Assembly (NCBI GenBank): GCA_949294735.1
Contig: CASFII010000006.1
Location: 310,001-374,000 of the forward strand
Direction of reading: 5' to 3'
DNA length: 64,000 nucleotides
DNA from: an uncultured Coriobacteriaceae bacterium
GTDB taxonomy: Bacteria; Actinomycetota; Coriobacteriia; Coriobacteriales; Eggerthellaceae
Positions within the stretch are counted from its first letter, which is position 1; the number at the start of each line of letters is the position of its first letter. Below, piece after piece: positions 2,294 to 52,134 of this stretch. A program made the translations under genes and the position numbers. The notes beneath the pieces are model-generated. The model saw only the letters and a program-made list of their open reading frames with translations, did not search any database and had not been told where the DNA came from.

Positions 2294-3676
2294 TTAAAAC
2301 TCGCGACGACGCAGAACGTAAGCGCCACCAGCCAAAACAGACAGAGCAATCACAGAAGCTGCAGCCATACCAGCTATCGGCATAGAGTCACCCGTTTCTG
2401 CCAAGGTGTCTCCAGCTTCTTCTTCAGCTGCAGGCTTGTCGCCTTCCTCAGTTCCCTGTTCGGTTTCATCTGCCCAACCACTGTAGAGCGTAAGGTCAGT
2501 AGTAATGGGTGTCGTTAATTCAAACTCGGTGCCCGGAGTTGCGTCTTTAGAAGTGTACCAACCCTTTAAGGTAAGACCACTGAACTCACCAGGAACTTCA
2601 GGGGCAACTACCGTTTTGCCATCTTCTACAGCTACAGCAATCTTTTCGGATAAGTCACCCTTAACAAATACGAATTGCACAGTGTGATAGATCGGTTCAG
2701 GTACTACTTGACCGCTTTCGTTAAGAATAAAGCCATCAGCAAGGAACTCGTCGGGGACTTCGCCCGTGAAAGTACCACCAGAAACTACCACTGTACCAGC
2801 AGTAACTTCCCAGCTGGTAATATTGATATTACCACCCGTAATTTCCGTTACAGGAACTACCGAAAGAGTTGGATCATACTCGTAGGACATAAAGGGGCCA
2901 TTAATGGTTGCTTCCCCACCAATAGTAGTTTTGCTGGCAGGAAGATCATTACTCCATACACTAGTCAAAATAAGACCATCGATGGTTCCACCCGTAATAT
3001 TAGCCTCAGCCCAGTTTTGAACAGCTGATTTATTTGCGCTAATAATGTGACCACCGGTGATGTTTAGAATTCCATAGTCATCGTTCTTAACAGCGATGAA
3101 GTTATCTTGCCGAAGCGTGCCTCCCTCAATAGTGAGCGTAGCTTTGTCATATCCGCCGTTACGAATAAGAGATGAGCCTACGTCTCCATTAGCAGGATCG
3201 CCAGAGTTGTTCGTAATGAAACCACCCTGAATGGTCATGGTTCCCTGATTGTCGATAACATAGTAGGAGGAATTCGCCGTTCCCTCGTCTTCACGCTGAA
3301 TGACTCCATTTCCCTTAGTATCAACAATGGTTAAGGTACCATTATTGAGGATTGCGGCCATACCGCTATGTTCAACACCAGTACCACCACTTAAGGTAAA
3401 ACCATTAAGATCGAGTGTGATGTTGTCATCTTCAGCAATGGTTACGTTCTCGGTAACGCTAGCTTCCAAAACTACGGTTTCACCTGCTTTAGCAGTATTT
3501 ACCGCCTCCTGCACGGAAGAGTACGTATCCTTTCCGACGGAAGCTACAACCGAGGTGTCGCCCGACGCGTCACCCTCCACAGCTAAAGCTTGTGGGACAG
3601 CAAAGGCTGCCGTTAAGCTTAGCGCTGCGACAAGAGCAAGAACGCCAACCCAGGCTTTCTTGATTGCCTCAATCAT
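2294..3676 (-). CDS. Sortase-anchored surface protein with beta-helix-like region and Flg_new-type repeat
   Basis: The ATG at 3676 is preceded by GAAAGGAAG at good spacing and opens a typical signal peptide (MIEAIKKAWVGVLALVAALS, cleavage near ALA-VEG). An in-frame ATG 75 bases upstream has no such site. The mature protein (460 residues in all) is rich in short G-T-I-G repeats such as NNGTLTIVDTKG and ITGGNINITS, resembling right-handed beta-helix or pectate-lyase-like surface proteins. Residues around 350-410 look like a Listeria-Bacteroides (Flg_new) repeat (GWYTSKDATPGTEF). The C-terminus has an acidic spacer, the LPxTG-like motif LAETGD, a hydrophobic helix and RRREF, so it should be attached to the wall by sortase. 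Ligand unknown. A G10 tract lies in the apparent promoter. Confidence 0.85.
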   Translation of the reverse strand: MIEAIKKAWVGVLALVAALSLTAAFAVPQALAVEGDASGDTSVVASVGKDTYSSVQEAVNTAKAGETVVLEASVTENVTIAEDDNITLDLNGFTLSGGTGVEHSGMAAILNNGTLTIVDTKGNGVIQREDEGTANSSYYVIDNQGTMTIQGGFITNNSGDPANGDVGSSLIRNGGYDKATLTIEGGTLRQDNFIAVKNDDYGILNITGGHIISANKSAVQNWAEANITGGTIDGLILTSVWSNDLPASKTTIGGEATINGPFMSYEYDPTLSVVPVTEITGGNINITSWEVTAGTVVVSGGTFTGEVPDEFLADGFILNESGQVVPEPIYHTVQFVFVKGDLSEKIAVAVEDGKTVVAPEVPGEFSGLTLKGWYTSKDATPGTEFELTTPITTDLTLYSGWADETEQGTEEGDKPAAEEEAGDTLAETGDSMPIAGMAAASVIALSVLAGGAYVLRRREF

Positions 3677-3760: not shown

Positions 3761-3791
3761 AGAATAGCTATATTTACCCCCCCCCCGTCAA
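3761..3791 (-). promoter_or_regulatory. Promoter with a G10 tract in the spacer (probable phase-variable switch)
   Basis: On the minus strand a TTGAC(G) -35 box (3786-3791) runs straight into ten G residues (complement of C at 3777-3786). A TATTCT -10 candidate lies at 3761-3766. As sequenced the spacer is 19 bp, above the optimal 17. Loss of two G residues would restore 17. Variable G or C tracts between -35 and -10 control surface genes in several pathogens. The motif is seen; switching is inferred. A second -10 candidate (TATGTA after TGC) lies further downstream. Confidence 0.5.
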
Positions 3792-48622: not shown

Positions 48623-51600
48623 TTATTGTTCGTTGTGCTTTCTAGAGAAGCCATAGCCAGCAGCTGCAGCCAAAGCTGAAACGCTTAGGGCTCCCAGCAG
48701 CAAGGCAACAGGAGTATTGTCGCCGGTTTTGGTAAGAGTATCTTCACCAGCGTCTTCGCCAGAATCGCCTTCGCCTGTGGTGCCTTCTTCGCCCGTGGAA
48801 CCGCCCTGACCAGGTACCGCCTTAAAGCTTACATAGATAAGCTGTGCATCAGTAACATTTTCAAAGGTGTAGGAAGTACCCGTAATTTCAACAGGAGAAC
48901 CATTTACCAGAACTTGGTCAATTTCATAGCCTTCGTCTGGAATGAAGTTGAAGGTCTGGTTTTCACCTTCAATTACTTCAACTTCACCAGCAGGATCAAT
49001 GGTGCCCCCTTCACCAGCTTCCGCAGTAATAACATGCTTTACTGGCGTATCGGTTTTGACAACTACCTTACCCGTAATGTCGTTGAAGTTGCGGCTTGAA
49101 ATGGTTACGGTGATGTTGGCAACCGTAGCTTCTTCGGTGGTATCTACTTTGTTGACAGGGATCTGCAGATAGCTTCCGCCTACCACAGAAATATCCGAAG
49201 CTTCAAAATAACCCGTCTTCAGAATTTCAACTGCGTCAGCGCCTAAGCTAAATGCTTGACCATTCAGGAAACCTTCAGGAGCATTGTCAGGAGTCAGGTT
49301 TGCCAAACGTACATAGTAGGTACGCTGCGTGTCGTTATAGATTACTTGAACAATCTCTTTCCCGTTCAGGTCCGTGTCTGCCTTAGAAATGGTTACGGTT
49401 GCTGTTGCAGGGGCCTCTACCAACTTGTAATTGTCTTTGTCAGCGCCAGTCAGTTCACAGGTCAAATCAACCGTCTTGTTTTCGCGTACATCAGGCGTAC
49501 GAAGTTCGCCGCTAATATTTAGTTCTACGTCATCATTATTGATAACACCATCAAGGTCTGCCGTTACCTCAACCTCGGTAGTTCCGTCATATTGGCGGTC
49601 GGTAGTCTGCACGTTGACAACTTTTACTTCCTTGGGCAAAACATGTACCCAAATGCTACCCGTTGACTGAGCATACGGTGGATTAGCAGAATTGTTTTCA
49701 GCTATGGTTACGGTAACTTCTGCCCAACCAGCCCCTACAAACGTTACTTCGCCATTTTGGTCAACCGTAGCAACATCCTGGTTTTTACTTACCCACGTTA
49801 ACTGAGATGCGTCAGGAGTCAACGGAGTACCTTCTAACGTAAAGCTCGGGGTGAGCGTTTGGGCGGCATCGCCGTAGGTAACTTCGATATAGTTGTCAGC
49901 AAAATCAACGTCTACTGGGGTAAATTCAGTAATAATAACTTCGATTTGACCTGACTTCGGACTTACGAAATTACCGTCATTGTGAGCATATTCCCAATAC
50001 AGCGTAGTGGAGCCCAGTTCGGCGTTTTCGAGACTTGTATCAGTAACGGGCTGCTGATGGTCAGCGTCAAGATACCAGGTAAAAGTACCGGCCTTTAAGT
50101 CAGCAAGGTCGTCATTTTGGATACCAGGAGCACGTACCGCCGCACCCTTGCCAATAGTTGGAAGCTTCGAAAGCAGGGCTGTTTCTCCTTGTTTTACATT
50201 CCAAGGTGACTGCACGCTTACCGTAAAGTCTGCCTTCACAATTGAGTAGGTCTTTTCCACCTTATCAGTGTCTAAAAGATTACCCGTTCCCGTAGAAGTA
50301 ACGGGGATGGTGTAGTCGCCCACTTCAACACTAGGTGAAGGCATAGTTAGCGTATAGTCTGCAGGGGTTTCAAATTCCTGGTCATAGCCCCACAGATCTT
50401 CAAGAACAACGCTCACCGTAGGAGCCTGCGTTGCACCGTTATAAGTAAATTTGGTCTCGCTAAGCGAAACCAAAGCTTCGGTCAAAGGAACCTTTACTGC
50501 AGCGTTTAGATCAACGTTTAACGCGCCATTTCCGGCAGTCTGCTCTTTACCACCCCAAAGCACAAGCGTAGAAGTGTCGTTGTCATTTGAGCCGAGAACA
50601 ATTCGGCCGTTATTGGTCAGCGTTACGTTATCCTGCATAGTTAAAGAAGCAGGATTTTTTGTTTCAGTAGCTTCAACAATGTGCAGCGTCGTGCCAGAGC
50701 TTACTGTGATGTTATAGTCGGCTACTGGATCACCCCACACTTGCACGTTAGCGGTTGTGTCAAACGTTACACCGCCATCCGCACCAAGCGTAGCGGAATT
50801 TTCAGTGCCGTCGTAGCTTACGAAGATTGCATCCCAAGAAGCATTATTTTCAGGATTACCAATACCTTGAGGAGCACAAATTACTGCGTTGCCGTTAGTG
50901 CCCGTGCTAAAGGTGCCGTGACCGCTATCACCAATAGCGCGGTGCCCACCACCAATACTGCTGGAACCGTCACCACCCTGGGCATACACGACACCACCGT
51001 TAATGGTGATAGTGCCTTCATAGTGCGCGTTTTCGCCAGAACCAATACCAGCGCCAGAAACGCCTGCAATGCCTTCACCGCCAAAGGCTTTTACCCAACC
51101 ACCATTGATAGTGATGTTGCCATCCACGCTGCCAGTTCCGCTTTCGTAGCCGCCGCCAATGCCAGCACCACCGCCAGAACCATAGGCGATTACGTTGCCG
51201 CCATTGATGGTAATGTCACCAAAGTTCGAATTGGTGCCAGTGCCGCCACCGATAGCAGCTGCATTGCCGTAAGCGTGTACAGTCAAGGTGCCGTTAGTAT
51301 CAGAATCAATCGTAAGAGAGGAGCCTGGCTCTACCCAAATAGTAGGATGTCCACTTTCACCATGAATGGTATTTGTGCCTTCTAGTTTTAAGGTAACCTG
51401 AGCGCCACCTCTAATTTCAATAGCAGAACTAAGGTTCCTTGTTTCAGAAATAGAGAGATTTGAAAGCGTGATAGTAGGTGAACCGCCATCAATAATAATG
51501 GAGTTTCTACCTAAAATTCCGGTAGTTCCTTCGCCGGAAAGTGTGTGAGATCCAGTTGAATTGCTGATCTCAATATCACCTCTACCTTGTTCTTGCCCAT

Positions 51601-51742
51601 CAAGGTAGATGTTTGCCCATGCGGTTTGAGGCAGACATAAAAGCATCACTGCGAACAGCAGCGTTACAATTAAGGTACCCCCCCCCATTAGCAAGTTTTT
51701 AGGTGCAGCTACTGAATGTGAAGTACTGCTATTGAACACCAT
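48623..51742 (-). CDS. Large sortase-anchored surface protein with a G9 tract in the signal-peptide codons
   Basis: The 1039-residue protein begins MVFNSSTSHSVAAPKNLLMG and has a long signal peptide (hydrophobic core LIVTLLFAVMLLCLP, cleavage near TAWA-NIYL). Residues 80-280 are G/N-rich repeats (ITINGGWVKAFGGEGIAGVS, GAGIGGGYESGTG). Further on are Ig-like (Big_2) sequence such as SKNQDVATVDQNGEVTFVGA and YDG-type repeats (DRQYDGTTEVEV). The C-terminus is an acidic linker, LTKTGD (LPxTG-like), a hydrophobic helix and SRKHNEQ. AGGAG lies eight bases before the ATG. Residues 20-22 (GGG) come from nine consecutive G bases, so slippage would shift the frame. An adhesin role is inferred. Confidence 0.88.
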   Translation of the reverse strand: MVFNSSTSHSVAAPKNLLMGGGTLIVTLLFAVMLLCLPQTAWANIYLDGQEQGRGDIEISNSTGSHTLSGEGTTGILGRNSIIIDGGSPTITLSNLSISETRNLSSAIEIRGGAQVTLKLEGTNTIHGESGHPTIWVEPGSSLTIDSDTNGTLTVHAYGNAAAIGGGTGTNSNFGDITINGGNVIAYGSGGGAGIGGGYESGTGSVDGNITINGGWVKAFGGEGIAGVSGAGIGSGENAHYEGTITINGGVVYAQGGDGSSSIGGGHRAIGDSGHGTFSTGTNGNAVICAPQGIGNPENNASWDAIFVSYDGTENSATLGADGGVTFDTTANVQVWGDPVADYNITVSSGTTLHIVEATETKNPASLTMQDNVTLTNNGRIVLGSNDNDTSTLVLWGGKEQTAGNGALNVDLNAAVKVPLTEALVSLSETKFTYNGATQAPTVSVVLEDLWGYDQEFETPADYTLTMPSPSVEVGDYTIPVTSTGTGNLLDTDKVEKTYSIVKADFTVSVQSPWNVKQGETALLSKLPTIGKGAAVRAPGIQNDDLADLKAGTFTWYLDADHQQPVTDTSLENAELGSTTLYWEYAHNDGNFVSPKSGQIEVIITEFTPVDVDFADNYIEVTYGDAAQTLTPSFTLEGTPLTPDASQLTWVSKNQDVATVDQNGEVTFVGAGWAEVTVTIAENNSANPPYAQSTGSIWVHVLPKEVKVVNVQTTDRQYDGTTEVEVTADLDGVINNDDVELNISGELRTPDVRENKTVDLTCELTGADKDNYKLVEAPATATVTISKADTDLNGKEIVQVIYNDTQRTYYVRLANLTPDNAPEGFLNGQAFSLGADAVEILKTGYFEASDISVVGGSYLQIPVNKVDTTEEATVANITVTISSRNFNDITGKVVVKTDTPVKHVITAEAGEGGTIDPAGEVEVIEGENQTFNFIPDEGYEIDQVLVNGSPVEITGTSYTFENVTDAQLIYVSFKAVPGQGGSTGEEGTTGEGDSGEDAGEDTLTKTGDNTPVALLLGALSVSALAAAAGYGFSRKHNEQ
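51678..51686 (-). repeat. G9 homopolymer within the large surface-protein gene
   Basis: On the coding strand ATG-GGGGGGGGG-TACC spans residues 19-23 of the signal peptide. As sequenced the frame is open (ON). A change of one base gives a frameshift and early loss of the 1039-residue product. Confidence 0.7.
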
Positions 51743-52134
51743 AGCTCTTCTCCTGCAAATCGATTGACTAATGTTAAAGTTACTAAATCATTATGCTGGG
51801 AATAGACATACTCCCCCTATATGTAGTCCTAGTCACTTTATCATAAGAGCGTAGGAGTGGCTACCTTTTTAACCATTAATTTCGCCAGTTGGAAAATTAA
51901 AAGTCCTGATAGATTAGCTAAAATTGTAGGGGGGCGTCATTTCTGAATACAATTTCAGGAAGAATCTGAGGATTATTTTACTACTATAAATTGTGGTATT
52001 CAAGATTTTGCTTGTGAAAGCTCTACGAGCACTTCATAGAAAATGGGGTCAGATTTTCCCTGACCCCATAAGATTAATTCGTAGCACTGCCGCAAGTGCG
52101 CTTACGCAGCTGTACGGCTATTGGTTCCGAGCTT
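51743..52134. other. Non-coding interval upstream of the surface-protein gene
   Basis: The 392 bases hold no credible gene. On the minus strand TTGTAT, an 18-bp spacer ending in CCCCCC and TACAAT (complement of 51923-51928) make a weak promoter candidate whose spacer also ends in a homopolymer (C6). It leaves a leader of about 180 bases. The enolase terminator (52038-52068) occupies the right side. Confidence 0.45.
52038..52068 (-). terminator. Intrinsic terminator after enolase
   Basis: TGGGGTCA (52044-52051) pairs with TGACCCCA (52061-52068), loop GATTTTCCC. On the minus strand the stem is followed by TTTTCT. It lies 66 bases after the eno stop codon. Confidence 0.75.

Follow-up and report, generated by a model that had tools for sequence, protein, structure and literature searches.

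Among the closest described systems is that of Bifidobacterium breve, in which a G-tract switch of a sortase-dependent pilus has been shown experimentally for bbr_0113 and bbr_1889 (PMC9187656). G/C homopolymeric tracts have also been described in Cutibacterium (Propionibacterium) acnes, where they include those of dermatan-sulphate adhesins (PMC4746626), and in Gardnerella, where colonies of one strain carried tract lengths of 9 versus 10 bp at a surface gene (PMC11287997). For E. lenta, an inversion-based phase variation system has been reported (PMC13174815), and in the literature that we searched, comprising open-licence papers only, we found no G-tract switching in Coriobacteriia or Eggerthella. 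The same literature yielded no account of a spread of such tracts in this order, including the GGDEF-EAL protein and the Tat-exported molybdo-enzymes described below. Mycobacterial NucS leaves indels of 1-2 bp unrepaired (PMC11551767), a gap that would favour such switches if the genome studied here is also devoid of MutSL.

Here we describe a G9 tract within the signal-peptide codons of a sortase-anchored protein from an uncultured Coriobacteriaceae bacterium. The window, by which we mean the whole stretch of 64,000 nucleotides (64 kb) that was analysed, supplies the positions given below unless a contig or locus is named. We consider it likely that the tract is a translational phase switch, i.e. 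a simple-sequence contingency switch of a known kind.

Results

Two G/C runs of at least nine bases are present in the window, namely a G9 tract at 51678-51686 and a G10 tract at 3777-3786, where Markov models of the window predict 0.05-0.17 per 64 kb. The G9 tract is on the minus strand (nine C on the plus strand) and occupies codons 19-22 (Met-Gly-Gly-Gly) of an ORF at 48623-51742, minus strand, being made up of the third base of Met19 (ATG) followed by Gly20 (GGG), Gly21 (GGG) and Gly22 (GGT). Its location in signal-peptide codons as a Gly-Gly-Gly stretch, as claimed in an earlier note on this DNA, was confirmed in exact position and in translation. The ORF encodes a surface protein of 1039 aa with YDG and Big_2 domains and a sortase tail; Beta_helix_3, MBG and Flg_new_2 matches fell below the cut-off. 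A Shine-Dalgarno motif, AGGAG (51750-51754, minus strand; sequence and pattern match), lies 7 nt 5' of the ATG at 51742, and the start of the ORF is credible. The signal peptide, MVFNSSTSHSVAAPKNLLM-GGG-TLIVTLLFAVMLLCLPQTAWA, is encoded by 51614-51742 (minus strand) and would span 43 residues if, as judged by eye, cleavage occurs after AWA. The tract follows the n-region and lies just ahead of the hydrophobic core.

The same protein that carries this Sec signal peptide also ends in a sortase tail, the C-terminal sorting signal (48626-48748, minus strand) consisting of LTKTGD, a hydrophobic stretch and a basic end; its assignment draws on a pattern and on a tail-profile match that is circular for this particular protein. 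The neighbouring genes encode a 128-aa protein without a Pfam match, a patatin and a class II tRNA synthetase, and no pilin operon with a dedicated sortase was present downstream among the neighbouring genes examined. Sequence searches of genomes and contigs for relatives of the 1039-aa gene gave only distant, single-domain matches.

In silico variation of the tract supports the claim that a single slipped base truncates the protein, with 23 aa predicted for G8 and 47 aa for G10, next to 1039 aa for G9. The remaining lengths considered would yield 46 aa (G7), 24 aa (G11) and 1040 aa (G12). Rescue from an in-frame start 3' of the tract was ruled out, as the first GTG and ATG there fall inside the hydrophobic core. 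Replication slippage at the tract would be expected to add or remove one G; with nine bases, and also with six or twelve, the adhesin-like protein of 1039 residues would stay in frame, and at other lengths translation would end at 23-48 residues, too early to yield a functional signal peptide. The truncated product would then leave no 1039-aa protein at the cell wall. We infer that the tract varies in this manner within the population, reversibly and with importance to the cell.

Similar arrangements recur in relatives. The start-anchored pattern GGAG-N(4-10)-ATG-N(24-54)-G9 was run over 138 genomes of the family and 299 of the order, and a second version, in which the spacing between ATG and G9 was N(55-85), was searched as well. 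Matches exceeded those of a reversed-pattern control only modestly, the control matches being numerous too, and many matches were spurious, with short frames or a stop ahead of the tract. Since the reversed control is not a clean null, the raw match counts were not used, and the evidence consists of the reading frames and of a tail-based sample. Hand curation, in which the frame giving the longest ORF was chosen, resulted in 27 long secreted proteins with a G9-G12 tract placed behind a charged n-region and ahead of the hydrophobic core. The tract length places 14 of these in frame (G000, i.e. the window's gene, G003 (two), G063, G091, G023, G005, G110, G212, G270, G229, G277, G271 and G272) and 13 out of frame (G090 (two), G107, G007, G081, G083:C23, G109 (two), G181, G234, G217, G260 and G309). 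A further gene, G083:C67, was excluded from this tally owing to its ambiguous start codon, yet is counted in the tail-based sample. A sortase-like tail was found in 18 of the 27 proteins, while six reach the end of the available DNA or Ns and three have none. Typical N-termini are MLRTMTKSLR-GGG-ALILAAVLALSLIP and MSNLKKRSMMRR-GG-VSLSLILSVLLATTLMIPP, and the set includes the pilin-like members L320, with a VWA domain and eleven FctA stretches, and L324, with SpaA and collagen-binding domains.

Two orthologue pairs, each within one genus, differ by a single G. In the first, G212 (G9) is in frame and G234 (G10) is out of frame, with near-identical DNA flanking the tract; in the second, the same applies to G270 (G9, in frame) and G181 (G10, out of frame). 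The downstream frames of both pairs are all long and intact. These pairs, which are of other genes of the class than the window's, constitute the best evidence for length change at such tracts with the gene kept. The phase switch proposed in the earlier note appears, from this comparison of sequences, to be well supported by the shared position of the tract in relatives, the in-frame and out-of-frame lengths and the one-G differences between orthologues.

The out-of-frame cases invite two other explanations. The lengths assembled in draft genomes may in part reflect sequencing or assembly error, and taken further, the true tract length would be uncertain throughout and the out-of-frame relatives would be miscalls. 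Homopolymers are indeed error-prone, and several contigs terminate in or near G tracts; the existence of the tract and its recurring placement over many genomes are, however, independent of its exact length, and we regard artefact as a highly improbable account of the data. The second explanation is that slippage of RNA polymerase or ribosomal frameshifting provides every cell with a fixed mixture of frames, amounting to dosage control with no heritable switch. Runs of G9-G12 can promote transcriptional slippage, and such a mechanism would accommodate the out-of-frame genes that remain intact in relatives. It does not need the close orthologues to differ in tract length itself, as they do, and the pilin tracts of Bifidobacterium vary at the DNA level (PMC9187656), leaving this explanation quite unlikely.

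The alternative that we take most seriously, albeit still as an unlikely one, is a neutral tract, i.e. that mutational bias generates G runs, that a poly-Gly n-region is tolerated and that lengths change slowly by drift, with no adaptive switching. Such a bias towards G tracts is indeed part of the background in this family: G9 runs are present in 127 of the 138 family genomes, and about half of 39 tracts sampled from three genomes were intergenic, a minority being start-proximal. Given that such runs are so common and often intergenic, G tracts are a general feature, and the surface-gene class represents one use or consequence of them. Precedent comes from C. acnes, where variation was consistent with clades (PMC4746626). 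To avoid selecting on the tract, we picked genes by a sortase-tail profile in 60 family genomes and inspected their 5' ends (n=26). Three (G090, G083:C67 and G109:C13) carried a G tract within the signal-peptide region, where 0.046 was expected from each genome's own tract density (P about 1.5e-5), and this expectation is an over-estimate because the density counts overlapping 9-mers. The sortase-tail genes thus bear a signal-peptide tract at about 65 times the frequency predicted from tract density, which speaks against neutrality, as does the finding that in 13 of the 27 curated genes the long downstream frame is out of frame but has not decayed and retains its tail.

A G9 element of 35 codons, recurrent in family f4, is not a surface gene. 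In L299, L300, L302 and L304-L308, mostly from genus g37 of family f4, a Shine-Dalgarno motif and ATG are followed by about 10 codons, a G9 tract and a short frame ending in EGVA, and this element resembles an intergenic repeat more than a gene. At L275 (G042:C1), nearby tracts of G13 and G11 at 2039 and 2700 are each preceded by an identical leader and followed by signal-peptide-like sequence, as though a switchable gene start had been duplicated.

The G10 tract of the window (3777-3786, minus strand) is intergenic. A second sortase-anchored gene (2294-3676, minus strand; MIEAIKKAW... start, LAETGD tail) has its likeliest start at the ATG at 3676, which the tract precedes by about 100 nt. The earlier note regarded it as a promoter tract; its position upstream of the anchored gene stands, but a minus-strand scan recognised no sigma-70-type promoter across it. 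The hexamer TTGACG adjoins the tract, and transcriptional switching through a promoter spacer at this site is possible but unsupported.

The view that long G tracts of this organism mark one functional class, the surface genes, holds within the window and fails beyond it. The genome (1.34 Mb in 8 contigs, about 86% complete), the gene content of which points to an Eggerthellaceae-like member of the Coriobacteriia, has seven distinct G runs of at least eight bases at six sites, of which five, at four sites, are intergenic and away from sortase-anchored genes. 'Surface genes only' as a rule for G tracts is therefore wrong genome-wide. The rplI-dnaB intergenic region holds two G tracts, one of which appears at two contig ends; further intergenic tracts lie between a cupin-like and a PH-type gene and downstream of hypD. 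The contig-end tract sits in a short tandem repeat with G runs, and the ends, G8 at G000:C7 198285-198292 (end of L031) and G9 at G000:C5 14642-14650 (end of L029), should abut and presumably represent the same tract, the differing lengths suggesting either length heterogeneity or assembly noise. The fifth intergenic tract, a G11 at G000:C8 137092-137102 (L033 12093-12103), precedes the gene of a probable Ltp-type surface lipoprotein by about 150 nt.

Enrichment in anchored genes, for which the earlier note had proposed a genome-wide check of G/C tracts of eight or more against LPxTG genes, was assessed with a tail profile built from three proteins, as PF00746 gave no match above its cut-off in this genome. 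The profile identified four sortase-anchored genes, and a single Pfam match to a sortase (PF04203) was present, on contig C3. A G tract at or close to the 5' end was seen in two of these four genes, far above the 0.004 expected by chance, with one of the two having been pre-selected; the other five of the genome's seven tracts lie elsewhere.

Start-proximal G tracts were also encountered in other classes of protein. In five species belonging to three genera, a GGDEF-EAL-PAS protein has a tract at a shared position, with lengths of 9 in L328 (G093), 13 in L329 (G094), 12 in both L330 (G095) and L331 (G084) and 9 in L332 (G090), two of these being in frame and three out of frame. Molybdopterin oxidoreductases of three species (L289 of G086, L333 of G088 and L157 of G103) have a tract of G9-G11 that lies within the Tat signal or immediately ahead of it, and all three are out of frame as assembled. 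In a LuxR-type regulator (L288 2050-3705; G109:C85), a G10 tract follows MRSTTLGKR and is out of frame.

Discussion

The interest of the G9 tract is raised by its recurrence across the order and by the spread of similar tracts to signalling and respiratory proteins. We lean towards the view that the order has widespread, undescribed G-tract switches. Adhesins and pilins with a sortase anchor would have a Gly-Gly-Gly tract in the signal peptide, after the n-region and ahead of the hydrophobic core, and comparable tracts near the start would make second-messenger signalling by the GGDEF-EAL-PAS protein and respiration by Tat-exported molybdopterin oxidoreductases equally stochastic. Through the c-di-GMP enzyme and the molybdo-enzymes, random switching would then reach beyond surface proteins into signalling and metabolism.

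If the switch is real, clonal populations would be mixtures of cells with differing surface coats, which would matter for adhesion to the host, recognition by the immune system and sensitivity to phage. A reference genome would then capture a single, arbitrary state, and about half of such genes would be labelled as broken by annotation pipelines. The start-anchored pattern provides a ready list of loci, at which tract lengths may be read from existing metagenomes.

Comparison with known systems places the two tracts of the window differently. For the G10 tract at 3777-3786, the poly-G promoter switch of Neisseria PorA (PMC3639595) would be the model, at a site where no promoter was recognised. 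For the signal-peptide class, C. acnes is similar in that its surface genes have G/C tracts, either in the 5' UTR or within the coding sequence, with an effect on expression shown for one tract, but the proteins are other ones and the variation tracked clades, which suggests slow accumulation and not active switching (PMC4746626). Gardnerella likewise has abundant tracts at genes for surface proteins with LPXTG, InlB B-repeat and other domains, although these are mostly upstream of ORFs, whereas the class described here has them in signal-peptide codons (PMC11287997). The switched gene of Bifidobacterium is the first of a pilus operon that includes a dedicated sortase, while the window's gene is without an adjacent sortase and encodes a repeat/Ig-like adhesin. 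The likeness to Bifidobacterium, also an actinobacterium, is that a sortase-anchored gene there contains, close to its 5' end, a G8-G13 tract, and the length of this tract sets whether the Sec signal is in one frame with the LPXTG part (PMC9187656).
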